Below, in pieces: positions 3,296 through 19,297 of a DNA stretch of 64,000 bases. The DNA lies in contig CATLHJ010000002.1 in NCBI GenBank assembly GCA_949949035.1, positions 62,001 through 126,000 on the forward strand, given 5' to 3'. A model generated the notes under the pieces. The model made no database searches, was not told the DNA's origin, and worked only from the letters and a program-made list of their open reading frames with translations. The position numbers were made by a program, and so were the translations under genes. Positions within the stretch are counted from its first letter, which is position 1. The number at the start of each line of letters is the position of its first letter. This DNA is from an uncultured Clostridia bacterium. GTDB taxonomy: Bacteria > Bacillota > Clostridia > Christensenellales > UBA1242.

Positions 3296-5607
3296 AAATT
3301 TCGGTTAATTGGTTAAATGATTATGTAGACTTGTCGGGCATTACGGCAACGGAAATTGCCGACAAATTAACGCAGATAACTTGTGAAGTTGAAGAGGTTA
3401 TTCCGGTTGGGCGTGACCTAAACACCATAGTGGTGGGTAAAATTTTAACTTGCGTCAATCACCCGCAAAGTGACCACTTGCACCTACTGACGGTAGATAT
3501 CGGGAAAAAACAACCACTAAATATTGTTTGTGGCGCCCCGAACGCCCGCGCGGGAATTATTGTAGCGGTGGCGACCGTTGGCACTGTGATGCCCAACGGT
3601 ATGAAAATTGAAGCCGTCAAACTGCGCGGTTGCGATAGTTGCGGTATGTGTTGTTCCTATGCCGAACTGGGTTACAAAGAAGAAAACGAAGGCATTATTG
3701 AATTACCAGCGGATACTAAAATCGGTACACCAATTACCGCCGTTCTGTCAGGGTTGACAGACGATATTATTGATATTGACAACAAGAGTATTACTAACCG
3801 CCCCGACTTGTGGGGACATTATGGTCTAGCGCGGGAACTGGCGGTAATTTTTGATCGCCCATTAAAGTCAATTAGCATTAAAAACGTATCTGCTTATGAC
3901 GAGTTGCCGCCGTTAAACATTAAAATCGAAAACGACCATTGTTTGTCGTACGGTGCCATTAAGGTCACGAACGTGGGGGACTGTGTGTCACCCGACTTAA
4001 TCCAAAATCGTTTGTATAAACTGGGACATAACAGTCATGGTTTATTGGTCGATTTGACCAACTACGTGATGTTGGCGTTTGGTAATCCGTTGCACGCCTT
4101 TGACGCCAGCAAGGTGGAAAAAATCAGTATTGGTACGGTGCCGGTCGGTACCAAATTTACCACACTTAAAGATAACCAAATTACTGCCACCAAGGAAATG
4201 TTGTTTATTAAATCTAATGGTAAACCAGTGGCACTGGCGGGGATTATGGGTGGTAAGAATAGCGAAATTACGCCCGCCACCCGTGACGCAGTGTTTGAAA
4301 TTGCGACTTTTGACGCGGCGAACGTGCGTCGCACTTCGGTAGCGGTGGGGATTCGCAGCGACGCCAGTATGCGTTACGAAAAAGCGTTAGACCCCGAAAC
4401 TAACTGGTTAGCGACAGCAGAGTTGTTGCGTTTACTGCAACAATACGCTCCACAAGCCAAGGTCGTTTCGTCCTTTACCCGAGTGGTTAACCCCAAGGCG
4501 GTGCGCTCTACCCAAACTATCGTAGTTCCGAAGCAACGGCTGTGCAGTTTTACGGGGGTCGATTTCACCAACCAATACGACTTGGTCAAACGTAAATTGA
4601 CGGCCTTGGGTTTTCAACCTAAAATAACCGCCAAAGATATTACCGTGACCGTACCGTCATGGCGCAGTTGGAAAGATATTACTACACCCGCCGACGTAAT
4701 CGAAGAAATTATTCGTAATTATGGCTACCAAAATATTCCGCCGGTGGCACCGACGGTACAAATTAAGCCGTTGCCATACGATGCTTACGCGGCCGCTAAA
4801 GAACAAATTAAGGACGCTTTGGCGTGGCATTATTACTTTAACGAAGTACATACCAATATATGGTACGATACTAAAGCGTTAAAGAATATGGGCTTAACGC
4901 CGCCGTCGTACGCGACAATTGCCAATCCGTTCAATAAGGACGACAACCAAATTCGTAGTACCATGTTGCCGAGTATGCTGACCGTGGCGGTAAACAATAA
5001 ATTGCAACCGATGGTGCGCGTATTTGAAATTGGTCGCGTTATTAACGCCGATGGTACCGAAAGTGAACACCTGGCGGGGACAGCGGTGTGTTTACCTTAT
5101 CATGAAGTCGCACGTATGCTGGTCAGTATTTTTGATCGCCTTGGTTTTGTGTTAGAATATAAGATTAACACTGTGGACAATCCCGTTTTTCACCCGACCA
5201 ATAATGCGGAAATTTGGTGTAACGGACAGTGCGTAGGTAAGATTGGTATTGTTCACCCGCGGGTACTCGGTTATGCGCAAGCGGTGGCTTTTGAAATTGA
5301 TTTGTCGACCATCGCGTGGGACAGCGTTCCGCAAAATTTAGCGCCCGTGTTGTCGAAATTTCCCAAAACGGAACTGGATTTCACATTTGTTTGGAACGGA
5401 ATATACGCGGATTTAGCCAAGATTATGGCGGGGTTTAATCATCCGTACGTGACGGGGCAACACTTAACCGCGGTGTATGAAAACCGGTATACCTTAACTT
5501 TCACCGTTTCTTGCCGCGAAAAAACGCTTGACAAAGAAGAAATTAAGCAGATTCACCAAGAAATTGTTGACTTTGCCGCTAAAAATAGTGTACATCTTTA
5601 TCAGTGA
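3292..5607 (+). CDS. pheT: Phenylalanyl-tRNA synthetase beta subunit
   Basis: N-terminal EMAP-like tRNA-binding domain, B3/B4 and B5 domains; 4-nt overlap with pheS. Confidence 0.96.
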   Translation: MKISVNWLNDYVDLSGITATEIADKLTQITCEVEEVIPVGRDLNTIVVGKILTCVNHPQSDHLHLLTVDIGKKQPLNIVCGAPNARAGIIVAVATVGTVMPNGMKIEAVKLRGCDSCGMCCSYAELGYKEENEGIIELPADTKIGTPITAVLSGLTDDIIDIDNKSITNRPDLWGHYGLARELAVIFDRPLKSISIKNVSAYDELPPLNIKIENDHCLSYGAIKVTNVGDCVSPDLIQNRLYKLGHNSHGLLVDLTNYVMLAFGNPLHAFDASKVEKISIGTVPVGTKFTTLKDNQITATKEMLFIKSNGKPVALAGIMGGKNSEITPATRDAVFEIATFDAANVRRTSVAVGIRSDASMRYEKALDPETNWLATAELLRLLQQYAPQAKVVSSFTRVVNPKAVRSTQTIVVPKQRLCSFTGVDFTNQYDLVKRKLTALGFQPKITAKDITVTVPSWRSWKDITTPADVIEEIIRNYGYQNIPPVAPTVQIKPLPYDAYAAAKEQIKDALAWHYYFNEVHTNIWYDTKALKNMGLTPPSYATIANPFNKDDNQIRSTMLPSMLTVAVNNKLQPMVRVFEIGRVINADGTESEHLAGTAVCLPYHEVARMLVSIFDRLGFVLEYKINTVDNPVFHPTNNAEIWCNGQCVGKIGIVHPRVLGYAQAVAFEIDLSTIAWDSVPQNLAPVLSKFPKTELDFTFVWNGIYADLAKIMAGFNHPYVTGQHLTAVYENRYTLTFTVSCREKTLDKEEIKQIHQEIVDFAAKNSVHLYQ

Positions 5608-6647
5608 ACGAAAACATTTTTTACATTGACGCCAAGACCAAAATTGTCGATTTCCTAACGACCGAGTTTTCGGGCACTTTCCCGATTAAATTACAAAACC
5701 GTTTCCTGAATTTCTTCCCACAAATTACCAATTACGAAGAAGAAGGGCATAAATACAAACCTGCCATTTTCTTCACTAACAATATTGACGCTGTGGTTAA
5801 AAACGTACCGAACGCCACTAAAATCGTGCTGTTTAATGATATAAACGAAAACATGTTTGCGTCACGCTTAAAAAGTTTAATTCCGTTTTGTAACCTGAAT
5901 TGGTGCGTTTACGTGTCGGTTTCAGATGACAAAACCGAATATGGCATTTTCCGGATTATTAACAGTATTAAAGACGAAAGTTTGGAAACTGTGTTATTCA
6001 AATCCCAAACTTTATTGGATAAAAGCAATAAACTGTTTGGTATTTACGTTTACGCCGAAAACACTTGGACGATTACCATGCGCAGCCTAAAAGGACGCAT
6101 GGTTAACGTTAACTTTGCGTTAGACATTAAGGTGGTTAATAACTGGGAAGACGAAATCAAAGAATTTGTTGATGCCAGTTTTGCTAAATTACGCACTAGT
6201 TCTAAAAAATTGCAAGACATTAAAAATATGTACAAAAACATCTTCAAAAACGTTATGCGCTCGATTGATGGTACTATTTGTGTAGTAGTGGATTCGGATT
6301 ACAAACCCGACGCATTCTTTGAAGATGGCATTTGGCTGACCGAACCAATCAACTTGTCGAAATTGTTTGCCCAAACTAACCAATACAATGAACAAAAACT
6401 GACGACCATTGCCGATGTCTTTATGACTATGTTGAATTTTGACGGTATTACCGTAGTTGATAACATGGGGCAAATTCGTGCCTATAACGTATTTATTGAA
6501 ACCAATTTGAAGGTTGCGGGTAACATTATGGGTGGGGCACGCAAACGGGCAGCCTATACAATTATTAACAGCAAACGGCCCAACATTATCGGTGTCTATT
6601 TTCAAAGTCATGAAGGTGAAATGTTTTACGCTCCCGTTAAAAGATAA
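5604..6647 (+). CDS. Protein with divergent DAC (diadenylate cyclase/DisA-N-like) C-terminal domain and unknown N-terminal domain
   Basis: C-terminal FDGITVVDNMGQIRAYNVF...GGARKRAAYTIINSKRPNIIGVYFQSHEGEMFYA resembles the DGA...GTRHRAA...VVSEETG pattern of DAC domains; ATGA overlap with pheT. Confidence 0.55.
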   Translation: MNENIFYIDAKTKIVDFLTTEFSGTFPIKLQNRFLNFFPQITNYEEEGHKYKPAIFFTNNIDAVVKNVPNATKIVLFNDINENMFASRLKSLIPFCNLNWCVYVSVSDDKTEYGIFRIINSIKDESLETVLFKSQTLLDKSNKLFGIYVYAENTWTITMRSLKGRMVNVNFALDIKVVNNWEDEIKEFVDASFAKLRTSSKKLQDIKNMYKNIFKNVMRSIDGTICVVVDSDYKPDAFFEDGIWLTEPINLSKLFAQTNQYNEQKLTTIADVFMTMLNFDGITVVDNMGQIRAYNVFIETNLKVAGNIMGGARKRAAYTIINSKRPNIIGVYFQSHEGEMFYAPVKR

Positions 6648-8200: not shown

Positions 8201-8564
8201 GGGGGCGATTGGCTTCGACGGTTGGCGGGCGGTTCGTTAAGCATACCGGCGGGGAAACCATACGTTAATTGGTTTCGAAAAGACAAATGCAAGTCCTAAA
8301 AATGCAAACTTGGCTTTGGCTGCGTAAGTAAGTCAAAGAACCGGGCGAACGACGCGTTTAACCCTTTTAACGGTCGCTCGACAACAAAGGGTGAACGGGG
8401 CAGTATAACCTTGGTTAACGGTAATATTGTTCGGCACCAAAGTTAACCCTAACCGAATTACTTTGTCGTTAATTTATCGGTTGGGAAATAGATAACGACT
8501 ATGTATGTAGAAGTACGAACCAGAAACCAATCGGACTCGGGTTCAATTCCCGACGTCTCCACCA
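8201..8564 (+). ncRNA. ssrA: tmRNA (transfer-messenger RNA)
   Basis: 5' GGGGGCGATTGGCTTCGACGG; 3' GGTTCAATTCCCGACGTCTCCACCA; acceptor stem GGGGGCG/CGTCTCC; tag ORF ending ...ANLALAA-stop. Confidence 0.93.
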
Positions 8565-10089
8565 CAGCAGGGGTATACGCACCCCTAGCACATAAAGCAA
8601 AATTAGTATTGCCTATTGGCGTTGATGTAGTTGTGCCGCCGTCAGGGCAATCGGGAAAAATTAGGTTCATTAGTAGGGCTTCTTTTTGTCCGCTTTTTAA
8701 GTGGAATAAGATTTTCATTTTGTCATCGTACACAATGACGCGGTAGATTAGCGTGTTAATTAACGCCTTACGATTTTGGAAATTGTCATAATCTAATTCG
8801 CGGAAATGGTGTAACCATTTTTGTATATCGGCGTAAGTGTAATTGATTTGCAAGGCTTTTTCGGTCTCAACGGTGTTGGCTAGGGCTTTATTCTCGTTTT
8901 CTAGTTTTTCAATTTGCGCCAAGATTGTGTCAGTGGCTTTGCCGTGCATTAACGCTTGCATTAAGTTGTCGATTGATTTTTGGTTGGCTGCTACCAAGTT
9001 TTCTAGCCGTTTAATCTCGCTGTCGTTTTGTTCAGCTTTAATTAGCGTGTAGGTTTCGGCGGCAATCATATCAATAAATTCATCGGTTAAAGTGCGGACA
9101 ATTTCTTGCACAACGGCGTCTTCAATGATTTTTTGACGGATGGTGCGTTTGTCGCATTGGTGTGATGGAATAATATTGACACAGCGGTAGTAATGGTGCA
9201 GTTTCCCCGTTTTGCTGGTGGCACTGATGCCCGTCATTTTGGCGCCGCATTTGCCGCAAATCAATTTGTCGGAAAGTAGGTAAGGAACTTTCGCTTTGCC
9301 ACGAGCGGGTGCGGCTGCGTATTTAGCAAGCACTTGTTGCACTTGGGTAAACAAATTATCGTCAATAATCCGCGGAATCCCGCCGTCGGTTTCTTGACCT
9401 TGAAAGATGTATTTGCCAAGGTAACGGCGGTTGTTGAAAATGCTGTGAAAACTGTTTTTGTTCCATTTGGCTCCGTGCGATGTTTTGATGCCGTGTTCGT
9501 TCAGGTAGTCGCCAATTTGTACATAGTTGTAACCACTGGCTAACATTTGGAACATTTTTTTGACGATTGGGGCAGTATTGTCATCGATGACGATATTTTT
9601 CTCGGTGTCAACCTTGTAGCCAAGCGGTACAGCACCACCAAAGAATTTGCATTTAGACGCCGAGATAGCAATGCCGCGTTTAATTTTCTGGGCGAGTTCT
9701 GCCGAGTAATATTCCGCCATACTTTCCAAGACGCCTTCGATTAAAATACCGCTGGCATCGTCAGTAATATTTTCCTTGGCGGATAACACGCGAACACCGT
9801 TTTTCTTTAATTTAGATTTATAAATGGCACTATCGTAACGGTTGCGGGCAAAGCGGTCCAACTGGTAAACAATCACAAATTGAAAGGCTTTTTTCTTGCT
9901 GTCTTCAATCATTTGCAAAAAGTCTGGTCGTTTATCAGTTGTTCCCGTTAAAGCACGGTCAATGTATTCGTGAATAATGTGCAAGTCACTGCGTTTGGCG
10001 AACGCATAGCATTCTGCTAGTTGCCCTTCGATTGATTGTTCATTTTGTGAGTGTGAACTAAATCGTGCATAAATTACGGCATTTTTCAT
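8458..10089 (-). CDS. Large serine recombinase (resolvase + recombinase + zinc-ribbon domains)
   Basis: N-terminal YARFSSHSQNEQSIEGQ, YQLDRFARNR; PLGYKVD...RRYLGKYIFQG; CGKCGAKM zinc ribbon; SD aaaaggagtaaaaa on the minus strand. The 3' end overlaps ssrA antisense. Confidence 0.88.
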   Translation of the reverse strand: MKNAVIYARFSSHSQNEQSIEGQLAECYAFAKRSDLHIIHEYIDRALTGTTDKRPDFLQMIEDSKKKAFQFVIVYQLDRFARNRYDSAIYKSKLKKNGVRVLSAKENITDDASGILIEGVLESMAEYYSAELAQKIKRGIAISASKCKFFGGAVPLGYKVDTEKNIVIDDNTAPIVKKMFQMLASGYNYVQIGDYLNEHGIKTSHGAKWNKNSFHSIFNNRRYLGKYIFQGQETDGGIPRIIDDNLFTQVQQVLAKYAAAPARGKAKVPYLLSDKLICGKCGAKMTGISATSKTGKLHHYYRCVNIIPSHQCDKRTIRQKIIEDAVVQEIVRTLTDEFIDMIAAETYTLIKAEQNDSEIKRLENLVAANQKSIDNLMQALMHGKATDTILAQIEKLENENKALANTVETEKALQINYTYADIQKWLHHFRELDYDNFQNRKALINTLIYRVIVYDDKMKILFHLKSGQKEALLMNLIFPDCPDGGTTTSTPIGNTNFALCARGAYTPAVVETSGIEPESDWFLVRTSTYIVVIYFPTDKLTTK

Positions 10090-10550: not shown

Positions 10551-10739
10551 ATGTGTAAAACGAATAATTTGCCAAATCGCTTTGACGGTATTTCAGTTAT
10601 CTATTTTGATGACAAAAGTCGCAACCGCTACGTGAAATTACCGGCGGATCAAGAACTGGCAAAACAGTTAGCCAGTTTGCTTTATCACAATGTAAAAATC
10701 ACAATTAGCCAAGACAAGCAAAAGGAGACTGTAAAATGA
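10551..10739 (+). CDS. Small protein (62 aa) translationally coupled to the tyrosine recombinase; possible excisionase/directionality factor
   Basis: SD aaaaggag upstream; ATGA overlap with downstream integrase; function by position only. Confidence 0.5.
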   Translation: MCKTNNLPNRFDGISVIYFDDKSRNRYVKLPADQELAKQLASLLYHNVKITISQDKQKETVK

Positions 10740-11653
10740 AATATCAAAATTGGTTAAACGAATGGTTGGAAAATTATATTAAACCGACCCATAAGCAACG
10801 GACTTACGATCGCTATTGGCAAGTTGTCAATACCCATATTTTGGCAAGTTTGGGTAATTATGAGTTAAATGCTATCACACCCTTGATCCTGCAAAAGTAT
10901 GTTGCCCAGTTGCTGCAAAACGGTAATCAGCAAACGGGGCAGTCATTGTCTGCAAATACGGTTAATGGCATTATTTCAATTTTGCAATCGTCCTTAAAAA
11001 CGGCGTATACCTTGGGGCTGTGCGACGAATACGTCGGCAATAAAATTGCCCGTCCCAAAATCACCGAAAAACAAGTTTCGTGTTTTAACCTGACAGAACA
11101 AAAACAAATTGAACACTATGTCCTCACTAACAAAAAGTTCAAACTTTATGGTGTGATAATTTGTTTGTATACAGGTTTACGTATCGGCGAATTATTAGGA
11201 TTAGAGTGGCGTGATCTTGATTTTAATAAAGGCATTTTGACAGTATCCAAGACAGTTTACGATCACCAAGGTCAGCGCTGTATTGATACTCCGAAAACAA
11301 TCACTTCTTGCCGCATGATTCCGTTGCCCAAACAATTGCTGCCGGTCTTGAGAAACTTAAAGCAAAATACCAAATCAAACTGTATAGTGGTGGATAAAGA
11401 TAATCGTCCTATCTCGGTCCGCAGTTACCAACGCAGTTTTGAATTATTACAAAAGAAATTGAAAATTGCCCATCGGGGGTTTCACGCTTTGCGGCATACT
11501 TTCGCTACGCGGGCATTGGAGTGCGGTATGGATGTAAAATCACTTTCGGAAATCTTGGGGCATAAAAATACCAGCATTACACTTAATCGTTACGTGCATT
11601 CGCTACTGGAACATAAGCAATCAATGATGAATAAACTTGGTAAATTGTTATAG
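10736..11653 (+). CDS. Tyrosine recombinase (phage integrase / XerC-D family)
   Basis: Catalytic pattern TGLRIGELLGL ... HALRHTFATRAL ... LGHKNTSITLNRYVH. Confidence 0.93.
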   Translation: MKYQNWLNEWLENYIKPTHKQRTYDRYWQVVNTHILASLGNYELNAITPLILQKYVAQLLQNGNQQTGQSLSANTVNGIISILQSSLKTAYTLGLCDEYVGNKIARPKITEKQVSCFNLTEQKQIEHYVLTNKKFKLYGVIICLYTGLRIGELLGLEWRDLDFNKGILTVSKTVYDHQGQRCIDTPKTITSCRMIPLPKQLLPVLRNLKQNTKSNCIVVDKDNRPISVRSYQRSFELLQKKLKIAHRGFHALRHTFATRALECGMDVKSLSEILGHKNTSITLNRYVHSLLEHKQSMMNKLGKLL

Positions 11654-11658
11654 AAAAG

Positions 11659-11815
11659 TGTTCATCAAATATTTTAATCGGCGTACATATTTACAATAAA
11701 ACTATACCATAGTCACCTGAAAATCGCAAACAAGTTATCAAAATTGTTCATTTACATGATATTTACCGCCACAAATTGCTCCATTTTGTTCTCCGATTAA
11801 AATATTTGATGAACA
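11659..11815. repeat. Perfect 23-bp inverted repeat (11659-11681 / 11793-11815) flanking a 111-bp segment
   Basis: TGTTCATCAAATATTTTAATCGG and its exact reverse complement CCGATTAAAATATTTGATGAACA. Confidence 0.97.
11701..11729 (-). promoter_or_regulatory. Sigma-70-like promoter inside the inverted-repeat segment, pointing left
   Basis: Minus strand TTGCGA - 17 nt - TATAGT with TGG extended -10. Confidence 0.6.
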
Positions 11816-11853
11816 AATGTTTTGTCGTTATGTACATAAAATGGGAGTTACAA

Positions 11854-12792
11854 ATGGCAAATCAATCACTTAATAAGGCAAAGATTGAAAAGAATGATGA
11901 ATTTTATACTTTAATGAGTGATATTGAAAACGAATTATCAAGATATGATTTCTCCCAATTCAAAGATAAAATTGTATATTGTAATTGTGATGACCCTACA
12001 TGGAGCAACTTTTTTAAATTTTTTACTAAGTGGGGTAAGCGTATGGGAATTAGTGAAGTCCATTTTACCAATTATGCCAATACAAAAAGAAAATGGAATA
12101 AACAATTAACACTTTTTGAAGCGCTTGATTTAAAGGAAAGTGCAGAAGATGATAGATGTGGTACGGCACACCATTGGACTTTTTATCCAGAAACTAATCA
12201 AATTACTAAAAGAAATCTTAAGGGTAATGGAGACTTTCGTAGCCTGGAGTGTATTGAAATTTTAAGGAAATGTGATATAGTCGTCACTAATCCACCATTT
12301 AGTATTTTTAATGATTTTCTCAATCTACTTATTAAATATGATAAATCGTATTTGATAATTAGTGATGATAATAAATTATCGAATATTGATATTTTTCCAT
12401 TAATAAAAGCCAACAAACTTTGGTTAGGCTATACTCGAGTAAAAAAGTTTTTACAACCAGATGGCACATACAAAACTTTTGGAAACAAATGTTGGTATAC
12501 AAATTTAGAAGTAACATATCGTCGGCAACCAGTTATTTTACATGATCAAGACCTAACGCGATTCAAAAAATATGATAATTACAACGCTATTGAAATTCCC
12601 GAAGTTAAATATATCCCAGATAGTTATTATGAACCCATTGGATTACCGATAACTTTTTTACATAAATTTTGTCCTGAACAGTTTGAAATAATTGGTATGT
12701 CAGGTGTAGATATAAAAATCAAGGGTGGACGCTTTTATGTGGCGGGTAGACGCTTGCAGCCAAGATTAGTTGTTCAAAGGAGAAAAATATAA
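11854..12792 (+). CDS. EcoRI-family adenine-specific DNA methyltransferase
   Basis: DIVVTNPPFSIF (NPPF), KNDEFYTLMSDIENEL, KCWYTNLE; start chosen at ATG 11854 with upstream GGGAG. Confidence 0.8.
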   Translation: MANQSLNKAKIEKNDEFYTLMSDIENELSRYDFSQFKDKIVYCNCDDPTWSNFFKFFTKWGKRMGISEVHFTNYANTKRKWNKQLTLFEALDLKESAEDDRCGTAHHWTFYPETNQITKRNLKGNGDFRSLECIEILRKCDIVVTNPPFSIFNDFLNLLIKYDKSYLIISDDNKLSNIDIFPLIKANKLWLGYTRVKKFLQPDGTYKTFGNKCWYTNLEVTYRRQPVILHDQDLTRFKKYDNYNAIEIPEVKYIPDSYYEPIGLPITFLHKFCPEQFEIIGMSGVDIKIKGGRFYVAGRRLQPRLVVQRRKI

Positions 12793-12793
12793 A

Positions 12794-13870
12794 ATGCAAT
12801 ATCAAATCGCAATTAGAACAATCAAAGATTTGCTGAATGATCAAGTATATTTAACCAATATCAATATGCAAAGAAAGTATATTTACAACCACGAACAGGC
12901 ATCTCATTTACTTGATAGTATTCAAAAGGGAATACCAATTCCAGCAATTTATTTGTGGGATAACCGTGATGGTACTTTTGATGTATTAGACGGGAAGCAG
13001 AGAATAACTGTCATGCGTTTATATGTTAATCCAAAATATTTACCTGGCGGAGTGCATAATTTTTTCATTGACCACATGGACATTAGAAATTTTGAAAGCT
13101 ATCAAATTCCCGTCATTATTTGTTCTGGAACCGAAGAAGAGAAAATTGAAACGTTTAAGCGAATTAATACTACTGCGGTTGCCTTAAAAGAATTTGAAAT
13201 TTACAACGCGTTATATCAGGGAACTTTTGTTGAAGAATTTGGTAACTGGGGCATTGGCTTATCACCAAACGAAGAATTGTTTTTCGGTAAAAGCATAAGG
13301 GGTGAAAACTGTATTAAAGCAGTAAAATTATTTACTGAGAAACCAGAAAATTATTTTAAGCATAATCGCAATCAATCCTTTGTGAATGGACTTAAAAGAG
13401 AGCTTGATGTTTTGGTTGAAACCACGCTTAACCTGTTCAAGGATTACGGAAATGATTATTACATTTTGGCTAAAATTGTACTAGAAAATATTAATAATAT
13501 CTCGTTAATTAATAGTTGGAAATTAAACAAAAGAACAATTACCGATTTATTAATTGAGTATGCTAATAACGGCGAATTGGCTAACGCACCCAGCCGTGAA
13601 AGTTTTTATAAGGAATTATTAGGTTGTTATACAATTACAGGTTTAGACAGTAAGCGGTTTTTCACAAAAGATGATAAAAAAGCCTTATATGAAAAATTAA
13701 GTAAAGGATTGAGTAGTGGAAAAAGAGTTTGTCCAACCTGTGGCAAAGAATTTAGTTTTGACCAATTCGAAGTCGACCATGTTTTGCCTTGGAGTAAAGG
13801 CGGCAAGACGTGTTTAGATAACGCCCAATTATTGTGTAAGGGCTGTAATGTTAAGAAAAGCAATCAATAA
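12794..13870 (+). CDS. DUF262 (ParB/GmrS-like) protein with C-terminal HNH nuclease domain
   Basis: DVLDGKQRITVMRLY (D-G-x-Q-R), QRKYIYNHEQASHLLDSI; CPTCGKEFSFDQFEVDHVLPWSKGGKTCLDNAQLLCKGCN; SD aaggaga upstream. Confidence 0.8.
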   Translation: MQYQIAIRTIKDLLNDQVYLTNINMQRKYIYNHEQASHLLDSIQKGIPIPAIYLWDNRDGTFDVLDGKQRITVMRLYVNPKYLPGGVHNFFIDHMDIRNFESYQIPVIICSGTEEEKIETFKRINTTAVALKEFEIYNALYQGTFVEEFGNWGIGLSPNEELFFGKSIRGENCIKAVKLFTEKPENYFKHNRNQSFVNGLKRELDVLVETTLNLFKDYGNDYYILAKIVLENINNISLINSWKLNKRTITDLLIEYANNGELANAPSRESFYKELLGCYTITGLDSKRFFTKDDKKALYEKLSKGLSSGKRVCPTCGKEFSFDQFEVDHVLPWSKGGKTCLDNAQLLCKGCNVKKSNQ

Positions 13871-14995: not shown

Positions 14996-17158
14996 ATGAA
15001 AAAAGTTCAAGTTTCTAATATCAAAATTCACCCCAGATCAATTGAGGCGATGGGGGCAAGTTTGGTTACTAATGATAATGTAGCGATTTTAGAATTAGTT
15101 AAAAATGCATATGATGCATTCGCATATAAAGTCAATATAACATTTAGTCACGACAATTCAAAGATAACTATTATTGACGATGGTATTGGAATGACCCTAG
15201 ATGATATAACTGAAAACTGGGCGACCATATCTACAACATATAAAGTTGATAACAAATATATTGAACGTAATGGTATTAAGCGTATAACATCTGGAAACAA
15301 AGGATTAGGGCGATTATCCGCTTCAAGATTGGGTGGAAAATTAACACTTATAACAAAAGCAAAAAATTCACCAATTTTAAAAACGGTATTTGTTTGGGAC
15401 AATTTTTATGAACAAGAAAGTCCAGAAGATTGCAAATTTGATATATACGAATTAGACGTAGATGAGGATATAAAAGAAACTGGCACAAAATTAATAATTG
15501 AAGACCTTAAGGCAAGTTGGGAATCAAGTAAAATTGACGATTTGAAAATAGAATTAGAAAGACTAATTAATCCATTTGATGGCAATAAGGATTTTGTTAT
15601 TACGTTAAATGATAAAATTGAGCCATTAACTATTTTTGATCATTATGAAAATACTGGAATTGTCGAAGTAAACAAATTAATTTCGGATCCAGTCTATAAA
15701 GTAACTGGAAGTGTTGATGATGAGTTAAACGTAGACTATACTTTTGAATATTTTGAGAACTATAATTCCAAAGATAAAAGAAATAAAAAGGTATTGAAAG
15801 GTTTTATATCTTGGGATGAAATTAAAGAAAAGTGCAATGATAGTAATTCTGAAACTATTCCTTATCATGATGATATAACTTGCGGAAAGTTTGGTTTTGA
15901 GTTTAGAATTTGGGAATTACAATCAGATTATCTTAATGAAATTGCAAATAGATATGGATTAAAATCAACCAGTATAGTAAGAAAAATTATAAATAATCAG
16001 AAAGGGATATCAGTTTATAGAGATGGAATTTTGGTTTTGCCAAAATCTGAAAATTCTAGAGATTGGTTAGGGCTAGACAAAAAGCGTATAAGTCAAATAG
16101 GTCGAAGATTATCTACAGCACAAATAATTGGTCAAATTAATATTTCGATCAATGAAAATCCTAAGTTACTAGATACTTCTAGTAGGGAAAGTTTTGTTAA
16201 AAACGAAGAGTTTGATAACTTCTACGCAGTTTGTGTAGCTGGAATCATTAATAAAATTCAGCAGTTGCGTTTACAAGTTAAGCCAGATGCAACTAATCGT
16301 CCTAATGTGAAAGACTTTTTTAAAGATGCATCGCCAGATAAACTAAATTCAGCTGTTGAAGATGCTGTTAAACAAAACAAATCAATTAGTGAAGTGCAGC
16401 AAGTTGTGCAAGATTATAGTAGGGAACTTAAAAGGAGTTTGGCTCTGCTAAAGGAGAGAGTTGAATATTATGCACAGTTAGCTTCAGCTGGTACCTTCAG
16501 TAAGGTAATAATTCATGAAATAAAGAATAACACCAACCCAGTTAAACGCTTTAATAGGAGCGTATATGAAATATATTCACCATTTAACGAAAGACTTAAC
16601 AATTATTATAAATTGTCTTGTGATGGATGTGATAGATTAATAAAATTATCTGATACTTTTGCACCTTTAAGTAGGACAACTTTCAAAACAGAAAAGCATA
16701 CTTGTGATCTATATTCAGAATCGAATAATGTTTTGCTCTTAATGAATGATTATTTAACAAATAACAACATTGTAGTTACAAATAATATTCCAAAAGGGAT
16801 TACCGTAAAGTTACATAGCGGTGAAATACAGACTATTTTAATTAATCTTTTAGACAATGCTATATATTGGGTTTGCAGAAACAAAAATCTGAATGATAAA
16901 TTAATTCAATTTAGTGTGGAAGAATGTGATAATGGCTTTATTGAAGTAAGAGTTTCAGATAATGGTATTGGTGTTGATCCGAATCTTGGGGAGAAAATAT
17001 TTGAGCCTGGAATAACATCTAAGCCTTCGGGTTTTGGTATGGGACTTGTTGTAGTTAATGAAATTGTATCAACACATTCGGGATATTTAAAAAACATACA
17101 ACCAGGTGAAATAGCAGATGGTGCAACATTTGCTTTTACGGTTCCAGTGGAGGAGTAA
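14996..17158 (+). CDS. Dual-GHKL protein: N-terminal MORC/Hsp90-like ATPase and C-terminal histidine-kinase module
   Basis: N-terminal ELVKNAYDA, IDDGIGM, SGNKGLGRLSA; C-terminal IIHEIKNNTNP H-box, NLLDNAIYW, VSDNGIGVDP, SGFGMGLVVVNEI. Confidence 0.83.
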   Translation: MKKVQVSNIKIHPRSIEAMGASLVTNDNVAILELVKNAYDAFAYKVNITFSHDNSKITIIDDGIGMTLDDITENWATISTTYKVDNKYIERNGIKRITSGNKGLGRLSASRLGGKLTLITKAKNSPILKTVFVWDNFYEQESPEDCKFDIYELDVDEDIKETGTKLIIEDLKASWESSKIDDLKIELERLINPFDGNKDFVITLNDKIEPLTIFDHYENTGIVEVNKLISDPVYKVTGSVDDELNVDYTFEYFENYNSKDKRNKKVLKGFISWDEIKEKCNDSNSETIPYHDDITCGKFGFEFRIWELQSDYLNEIANRYGLKSTSIVRKIINNQKGISVYRDGILVLPKSENSRDWLGLDKKRISQIGRRLSTAQIIGQINISINENPKLLDTSSRESFVKNEEFDNFYAVCVAGIINKIQQLRLQVKPDATNRPNVKDFFKDASPDKLNSAVEDAVKQNKSISEVQQVVQDYSRELKRSLALLKERVEYYAQLASAGTFSKVIIHEIKNNTNPVKRFNRSVYEIYSPFNERLNNYYKLSCDGCDRLIKLSDTFAPLSRTTFKTEKHTCDLYSESNNVLLLMNDYLTNNNIVVTNNIPKGITVKLHSGEIQTILINLLDNAIYWVCRNKNLNDKLIQFSVEECDNGFIEVRVSDNGIGVDPNLGEKIFEPGITSKPSGFGMGLVVVNEIVSTHSGYLKNIQPGEIADGATFAFTVPVEE

Positions 17159-18159
17159 TGAAAGTATTAATAGCGGAAGATAAATTAGAAACAATACAAT
17201 CTATAACAGATCATTGCAGTGATAATAGTATAGAGTATCAAATAATCCAAGATTTTAATGATGTTTTATCTACATTAGCAACAACACATTTTGATGCATT
17301 AATTTTAGATTTAAAGAAAGATCCTGGTGAGGAATATCCTGGATATGATATATTTAATCAGATATGGGCAGAAAGATTTATCCCTATCATTATTTATTCT
17401 TCATATTATGATAATCTACCTAATAAGGTTGACCATCAGTTTGTTTCGTACTTTGATAAGTCCGAAGAGGAAAAGGTAATAGTTCGCTTGACTGAGTATT
17501 TAAGTATGAGCGAAAAAATTACTAAAATTCGTAGTAAAATGAATGATTTATTTATACAAGCTTTAAGGTTCGTTAATAATAACGACTCGAATGATGTTCA
17601 ATTTCAAAGAGTATTGATTGGGATGAAAAATTATCTTGACGAGGACAATCCCAACCTTTCGTTACCAGCAGATGTGCAATACTTGGTTTTACCTCAATAT
17701 CAATCATTAGCGACTTGTGATATTGTTGAGACTATTCCACAACACAATACAGAATCTGAATTTTATATGATTATGTCACCGTGGTGTGAAATTGCGCAAG
17801 CAGGAAGTCCGATTGAATTAGAATGTAAGAAAATTATTGATAATTCTTCTGTGAATAGTGAGACAAGAAATACTATTAAAAACCATAGCAATGAAGGTGG
17901 GTATAGAAATTATATTTTGCTTCCCGATTGTAAAAAGTTGAAAAAAAAAATCGTTGATGTAACGAAGACTGTTATAATAAAAAATGATCAAATATCACTC
18001 AATCCAAACGAAACAGATTTAAATAGATATAAATATAGAAAAATAATTTCAATAGCAAGTCCATTTCGTGAAAGGATGATTGCCTTATGTTATAACAATA
18101 GATCGCGTATCGGTGTGCCAAACTTAAATAAGGATAGTTGGTGGATCGATGAAAATTAA
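17158..18159 (+). CDS. Receiver-domain (response-regulator-like) protein with uncharacterised C-terminal domain
   Basis: Receiver residues: IAEDK acidic pair, LILDLKKD phosphoacceptor, IIIYSSYYD, SYFDKSEE lysine; overlaps both neighbours. Confidence 0.75.
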   Translation: MKVLIAEDKLETIQSITDHCSDNSIEYQIIQDFNDVLSTLATTHFDALILDLKKDPGEEYPGYDIFNQIWAERFIPIIIYSSYYDNLPNKVDHQFVSYFDKSEEEKVIVRLTEYLSMSEKITKIRSKMNDLFIQALRFVNNNDSNDVQFQRVLIGMKNYLDEDNPNLSLPADVQYLVLPQYQSLATCDIVETIPQHNTESEFYMIMSPWCEIAQAGSPIELECKKIIDNSSVNSETRNTIKNHSNEGGYRNYILLPDCKKLKKKIVDVTKTVIIKNDQISLNPNETDLNRYKYRKIISIASPFRERMIALCYNNRSRIGVPNLNKDSWWIDEN

Positions 18160-19297
18160 AGCGATAGACCTGTTTTCAGGCTGCGGGGGAGTTTCTTGTG
18201 GATTAATTAATGCTGGGTTTAATGTTACAGGAGCCGTAGAAATAAATAAAGATGCAGTAAGAACCTACAAAAATTATAAAAGATTACAACATGTTAATGT
18301 TATTAATGATGATATTCGTAATGTTGATGGTTTTGAATTACTAAAACAAAGCCAGATTGAACCTAGCGATATTTACTTATTGGCAGGTTGCCCACCTTGT
18401 CAAAATTTTTCATCGCAGAATAGGTCTGGAAGATTAAAAACAGAAACAGAAAAAGAAGCATTATTAATGGAATATTTAAGAATTATTAAACAAGTGTATC
18501 CACCGTTTGTTTTACTTGAAAATGTTTCTGGTATTACAAGTCCATGTAATAAAAACATATTAAATAAATTTATAAATGAATTAAAAAATGAAAAAGATAC
18601 TTGTGCGGAACACCAATATTTTGTGCTGTGTAGTATATTAAACGCCGCCAATTTTGGTGTGCCACAAAGACGTCGTAGGTTTGTGCTACACGCTATTAGA
18701 AAGGATATATATAATCTACTCAAAAGCCAAAATATTGGTGTTTCATTACCAAGAGAAACTCATAATAAGAATGGTGATCATGGTTTGAACAGATGGGTAT
18801 CAGTATGGGATGTTATATCTGATTTACCACCGATAGAAGCTGGACAACATTTTAATTCAGGAACAATTAAAAACCACACTTGTGCCAATTTATCTGAACT
18901 TAACATCCGAAGAATGGAATATATACGAAATAATGGAGGTAGTAGAAGTAGTCTACCTGATGATCTACAATTAAATTGTCATAAGAATTATTCAGGGCAT
19001 AAAGATGTTTATGGAATTATAGATCCTAATCTTCCCGCTCCTACTATGACGGGAGGGTGTTTATGTTATTCGAAGGGACGTTTTGGACATCCATATCAAA
19101 ATAGAGCTCTATCAATAAGAGAAGCGGCTAGGATACAAACTTTCCCTGATGATTTTATTTTTGACGATTTGACAACAAAGTCAGGACTGCAAATAGGCAA
19201 TGCTGTCCCGGTTAAATTAGTTGAAGTTTCTGCAAAAAATATACTACTTGAAATAGTCAATTATCAAAAATTATTGAGAAAATCTTCTAATAAATAG
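18149..19297 (+). CDS. DNA (cytosine-5) methyltransferase
   Basis: Motifs DLFSGCGGVSCGL (I), AGCPPCQNFS (IV), LLENVSG (VI), QRRRRF (VIII), QIGNAVPV (X). Confidence 0.95.
   Translation: MKIKAIDLFSGCGGVSCGLINAGFNVTGAVEINKDAVRTYKNYKRLQHVNVINDDIRNVDGFELLKQSQIEPSDIYLLAGCPPCQNFSSQNRSGRLKTETEKEALLMEYLRIIKQVYPPFVLLENVSGITSPCNKNILNKFINELKNEKDTCAEHQYFVLCSILNAANFGVPQRRRRFVLHAIRKDIYNLLKSQNIGVSLPRETHNKNGDHGLNRWVSVWDVISDLPPIEAGQHFNSGTIKNHTCANLSELNIRRMEYIRNNGGSRSSLPDDLQLNCHKNYSGHKDVYGIIDPNLPAPTMTGGCLCYSKGRFGHPYQNRALSIREAARIQTFPDDFIFDDLTTKSGLQIGNAVPVKLVEVSAKNILLEIVNYQKLLRKSSNK

Follow-up and report, generated by a model that had tools for sequence, protein, structure and literature searches.

The window, by which we mean the whole stretch of 64,000 nucleotides that was analysed, carries a tyrosine recombinase gene, a short intergenic region bounded by inverted repeats and two genes of a restriction-modification (R-M) system, all within a region that also contains a tmRNA gene and a large serine recombinase. 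The features are as follows.

8201-8564, tmRNA (ssrA), whose 3' end overlaps the 3' end of the serine recombinase gene
8458-10089, minus strand, large serine recombinase at the left end of the island, overlapping the tmRNA 3' end
10736-11653, plus strand, tyrosine recombinase of 305 aa, presumed invertase of the switch (PF00589, E 1.8e-29; PF14659)
11659-11687, plus strand, recombinase-proximal recombination site, with the exact 23-bp arm at 11659-11681
11682-11792, presumed invertible segment of 111 bp between the two inverted sites, with homologous segments in both orientations in relatives
11701-11729, minus strand, predicted extended -10 promoter of sigma-70 type (TTGCGA-17-TATAGT), facing away from the cargo as assembled
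11787-11815, minus strand, cargo-proximal recombination site, with the exact 23-bp arm at 11793-11815
11843-11847, plus strand, GGGAG, likely ribosome-binding site of the methyltransferase, inferred from sequence
11854-12792, plus strand, EcoRI-type N6-adenine methyltransferase, first cargo gene (PF13651, E 5.5e-82; PADLOC MTase_II; NPPF motif)
12794-13870, plus strand, DUF262/GmrSD_N-HNH nuclease, presumed restriction enzyme, second cargo gene (PF03235, PF01844)

The match to PF00589 confirmed that the gene preceding the repeats encodes a tyrosine recombinase, as the first-pass annotation had proposed. The protein contains a SAM-like N-terminal and a catalytic Pfam domain without a further arm-binding domain, and its nearest solved relative is the integrase of Tn1549 (6en0, E 1.9e-20). 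Along with the catalytic domain, the residues that characterize tyrosine recombinases are present: alignment to Tn1549 Int indicates that the Arg, Lys, His-x-x-Arg, His and Tyr positions are all retained. The gene is full-length, and linked site pairs lie beside its homologues in many genomes. Viral contigs searched with the recombinase, site and segment gave no matches. Plasmid and phage records yielded only recombinases at about 30-36% identity, and a search of genome contigs returned one homologue of 52% identity (L049) and one weak match.

Methyltransferase and nuclease genes lie side by side, as expected of a type II R-M system. Their original assignment to an EcoRI-type methyltransferase and a DUF262-HNH protein held, with PF13651 in the former and GmrSD_N plus HNH in the latter, and PADLOC places the nuclease in REase_II across nearly its full length (E 2e-30). 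This combination recurs in several relatives. The two genes presumably form a working R-M pair that restricts and methylates DNA. Further along the window, positions 14996-19297 may hold a second R-M-like module, which encodes a protein with two ATPase domains and weak similarity to restriction enzymes of the BbrUII/HgiDII family, together with a receiver-like protein and a C5 methyltransferase. A methyltransferase-ATPase pair in a related locus (L118:6500-9108) resembles this module.

On re-checking the coordinates, the arms at 11659-11681 and 11793-11815 proved to be exact reverse complements around a 111-bp spacer, as first described. Spacing to the neighbouring genes also agreed: the first arm begins 6 nt past the recombinase stop codon (11651-11653), leaving a gap of 5 nt, and 38 nt separate the repeat from the methyltransferase ATG (11854). 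This is the arrangement of an inverton, in which inverted repeats enclose a short intergenic segment. A perfect 23-bp inverted repeat with a loop of 50-500 bp is expected by chance about 6e-7 times per 64 kb. The arm has no further match in the 64-kb window with up to three mismatches allowed, the 111-bp segment is single-copy genome-wide, and elsewhere in the genome the site type occurs only as pairs adjoining two paralogous recombinases. The repeat grows to 29 nt at 93% identity (11659-11687 and 11787-11815). Tyrosine recombinases use two inverted half-sites around a core, and the imperfect extension gives each site this form, resembling TGTTCATC-core-CGG..ACA.

The promoter reported on the minus strand of the segment, TTGCGA-17-TATAGT with a TG extension, was found at 11729-11701. 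Its score of 10.6 clearly exceeds that of the best site in the other direction (6.8), in keeping with the earlier statement that no comparable promoter faces the opposite way. Counting consensus matches was uninformative by itself (3 promoters found against 3.0 expected in shuffles, not above chance), and segments were therefore scored one by one; the best score of this segment was matched by about 1% of shuffled segments. The segment is thus predicted to hold a one-directional promoter, as invertons do (shuffle p ~0.01). However, this promoter is a modest consensus match, which counts against reading the region as a switch. An extended -10 is present in most of the homologous segments.

We propose that the recombinase (10736-11653) would act on the pair of inverted sites that directly follows its own gene on the 3' side, recombining them and so inverting the 111-bp segment. 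As assembled, the sole good promoter of the segment points toward the recombinase and away from the methyltransferase, which would leave the R-M pair without a promoter; this corresponds to the OFF state of the first-pass annotation, although OFF could leak. In the flipped state, the promoter would lie at about 11745-11773, with its -10 at 11768-11773 as calculated before, and the mRNA would start about 74 nt ahead of the methyltransferase, close to the leader of about 70 nt given previously. Methyltransferase and nuclease would then be driven together (ON). The inverted form is predicted to carry the junction ...TTTTAATCGGAGAACAAAATGG... beside the recombinase.

Of 14 loci tested, 11 have a hairpin with a U-rich stretch after it at the OFF junction, and this structure is weaker or gone in the ON junction. 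In these terminator-bearing copies, a single inversion would set the direction of the promoter and at the same time create or abolish a terminator. The exceptions are L147, L052 and the window, where we detected no terminator hairpin at the OFF junction and none between recombinase and methyltransferase. In this the window differs from most of the related switches, a point against the switch reading, and read-through from the recombinase could give some expression of the methyltransferase when OFF. The L052 segment has an intrinsic terminator at about 3600-3650 in recombinase orientation (hairpin of -12.8 kcal/mol and a T-run), which faces the methyltransferase in the OFF state, as if blocking read-through.

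Homologues of the recombinase are present in 33 of 298 genomes at the family level (E below 1e-60) and in 79 of 396 at the order level (E below 1e-75). Their loci follow two layouts: in layout A, that of the window, the segment lies 3' of the recombinase, while in layout B the recombinase and the cargo are divergent and flank it. Of the 60 order-level loci examined, 36 had an inverted pair immediately 3' of the recombinase gene. Pfam was used to type the cargo of representative loci, and tblastn or clear sequence resemblance that of the others; on this basis, the 24 family-level loci with identifiable cargo comprise 19 with R-M systems and five with surface or secreted proteins. Type II, type III, Eco57I-like and m5C systems, as well as surface proteins, were seen across loci. 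Near-identical recombinases lie beside type III, EcoRI-type and Eco57I-type systems (L127, L130, L125, L121, L122), which indicates that switch and cargo are exchanged. The first cargo of one switch is a NusG-like gene (L213:5318-5974), whose product might act as a phase-variable antiterminator for a surface-polysaccharide cluster. By a simple promoter score, for which some differences between directions are small, the promoter points toward the recombinase in 25 order-level loci and toward the cargo in 11. By the same kind of score, intact family-level loci are mostly OFF, those that are ON being L054, L144, L152 and L118.

It had been stated at the outset that homologous loci with a single orientation would speak against a switch; instead, both orientations were found. 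L182 (G455) and L185 (G431) represent the same locus, with a cargo side 98.5% identical over 1 kb and recombinase genes 91% identical, and their 137-bp segments, 99.3% identical, lie on opposite strands. The breakpoints fall at a shared 12-bp core, ATTTTCCCAATC. These two recombinases are about 63% identical to that of the window, and a further locus, L178 (G477), has the orientation of L182. The segment also lies on opposite strands in L189 and L192 (83-86% identity, with 83% for the segment), and in G028 it is opposite to that of G179 and G027 relative to the EcoRI-type methyltransferase (and DUF262-HNH) cargo. Comparison of assembled loci thus shows that homologous segments linked to homologous recombinases invert in relatives. 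The reverse orientation of the window's own segment was not seen in the genome assembly; we infer that this segment inverts as well and that its promoter is active.

Contig ends point to the same crossover position. In G179, two contigs begin with an identical 141 nt of the segment and split exactly at the core ATTGCAAGA, one running into the recombinase flank and the other into the methyltransferase flank. Because assemblers often work with a k-mer length of 141, this split is probably a branch of the assembly graph; a second copy of the segment is a less likely alternative. Pairs of contigs also break at the core in G184 (77 nt), G009, G286 (whose methyltransferase and nuclease are 80% and 70% identical to those of the window) and G093 (77 nt; recombinase 63% identical to that of the window), as well as in G027, on one side only (77 nt). 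Among the 60 order-level loci, 10 contig ends lie within 300 nt of the recombinase on its 3' (segment) side and 0 on its 5' side (p = 0.002). We regard contig ends at the crossover core as signs of mixed orientations within one sample. With the homologous segments found both ways, these breaks support the recombinase-driven switch that the first-pass annotation had inferred.

The genome encodes three modules of recombinase, site pair and cargo, including that of the window. The recombinases of the two paralogous modules are 64-65% identical to the window's and have the same site type; both modules have a large repeat-containing lipoprotein as cargo, with leucine-rich-adhesin-like matches in the L007 module, and a promoter directed toward the recombinase. 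The C5 paralogue of the recombinase has an in-frame stop, suggesting that some copies are decaying. At L006 (5878-6567 and 6611-7618), the paralogous recombinase with the in-frame stop (first ORF of 229 aa) adjoins a Rep-like gene, a putative CRESS-type Rep from our reading of its sequence. Because its sites hardly differ from those of L007, L006 might be served in trans. Upstream of the second paralogous recombinase, L007:7777-9788 contains genes for a putative replication protein and a Zot-like ATPase, perhaps the remnant of a filamentous phage, and in the same locus an ORF (5720-6556) sits between recombinase and segment.

In the window, the overlap between the 3' ends of the tmRNA and the serine recombinase gene suggests that the switch-bearing island inserted at ssrA. 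A search for a directly repeated copy of the tmRNA 3' end at the island's right boundary gave none. A large serine recombinase is also near the tyrosine recombinase in L051, where it was confirmed by Pfam, and in L054. The layout B switch of L121 (1404-3887) adjoins a sigma-factor-like gene and a MobL relaxase gene, and is probably on a mobilizable element. These serine recombinases and the relaxase make it probable that mobile islands carry both layouts.

The anatomy of a switch is present in the window, and we consider it highly probable that it constitutes a recombinase-driven promoter-inversion (phase-variation) switch ahead of an R-M operon. A real switch that is now locked, ancestrally invertible and either fixed OFF or flipping too rarely to matter, would fit the single orientation in the assembly and the truncated paralogous recombinase of the same genome, as well as G191 (L117), which has retained a segment in the ON orientation although the 9 kb examined revealed no recombinase. 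We nevertheless judge this improbable, since the recombinase of the window has its full length and retains the catalytic positions, and since the two 23-bp arms have stayed identical, which continued use would predict.

It is less probable still that an integrating element uses the repeats as attachment sites, with the recombinase as its integrase and the 111-bp segment incidental. The recombinase does belong to the integrase family, with Tn1549 Int as its nearest structure, the region resembles a mobile island at a tmRNA gene with a large serine recombinase, and a layout B locus has a MobL relaxase. Yet the sites lie in inverted orientation at a distance of about 110 bp, unlike direct repeats at the ends of an element; the genome has no close copies of them but the two other site pairs; and a separate serine recombinase is available for moving the island. 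Moreover, the segments of relatives invert without a change of locus; L182 and L185 largely refute this explanation, and we rejected it. MITEs can be short units flanked by inverted repeats, and a dispersed unit had been named early on as evidence against a switch; the genome has the segment in one copy, with sites occurring only as recombinase-linked pairs, which argues that it is not a MITE. Considering also the very small chance expectation, and that the location on the 3' side of homologous recombinases is conserved in 36 of 60 order-level loci, we rejected both a MITE and a chance repeat without regulatory role, either of which is scarcely credible.

Invertible promoters and phase-variable R-M systems are each established. 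The proposed switch is like the gut invertible promoters, or invertons (Jiang et al., 2019, as represented where cited in PMC11892184 and PMC11868660), in which a site-specific recombinase flips an intergenic promoter between inverted repeats and turns the neighbouring operon on or off. It is also like E. coli fimS with FimB/FimE, a short invertible promoter segment (314 bp) with a neighbouring tyrosine recombinase (PMC9993118), but its cargo is an R-M system and not fimbriae; the window recombinase is only distantly like models of tyrosine-type DNA invertases (NCBIfam NF007371, 26.8 bits against a cut-off of 222).

Site-specific inversion also alters R-M systems in the phase-variable hsd loci of Mycoplasma pulmonis (Dybvig and Yu, 1994, as cited in PMC11892184) and in the pneumococcal cod locus with PsrA (PMC7096588). 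Both of these rearrange type I specificity genes, and the R-M inversions in PMC11892184 and PMC5903667 occur inside hsdS genes, which they shuffle. Here, in contrast, a separate small promoter segment would be flipped ahead of a whole R-M pair, with its apparent cognate recombinase adjacent, and the cargo is a type II-like methyltransferase and DUF262-HNH pair instead of a type I system. Phasevarions similarly involve a methyltransferase that is ON or OFF in a clonal population, mostly through type III mod genes and to a limited extent type II (reviewed in PMC13076061), whereas promoter inversion here would switch methyltransferase and nuclease together. Recombination of promoters or protein cassettes has been named as a route of R-M diversification (PMC12707154), and invertible promoters have been suggested as a possible control of methyltransferases (PMC10333322). 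In the part of the literature covered, no report of recombinase-linked promoter inversion acting on an entire R-M operon came to light, and a recombinase lineage with such control over whole R-M operons of diverse types looks to be new. The window very likely contains a working switch; its type is known, its cargo unusual and recurrent.

At the level of the order, this recombinase lineage is probably a portable phase-variation cassette, set time and again ahead of unrelated R-M systems (EcoRI-type/DUF262-HNH, type III, Eco57I/MmeI-like and m5C) and of surface lipoproteins, that switches R-M systems as a whole, with many copies having a terminator that the junction builds when OFF and takes apart when ON. 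If so, one DNA flip would split a population into restricting and non-restricting, methylated and unmethylated cells. This may be a bet-hedge that sets phage defence against gene uptake, and a methylation regulon is also possible. A puzzle would then be how a cell survives when methyltransferase and nuclease switch on together, or off with nuclease remaining. Judging by the near-identical recombinases beside three R-M types, it may be common in this order for only a fraction of the cells in a population to express their defence systems, and such expression would mislead estimates of defence that are based on gene content.
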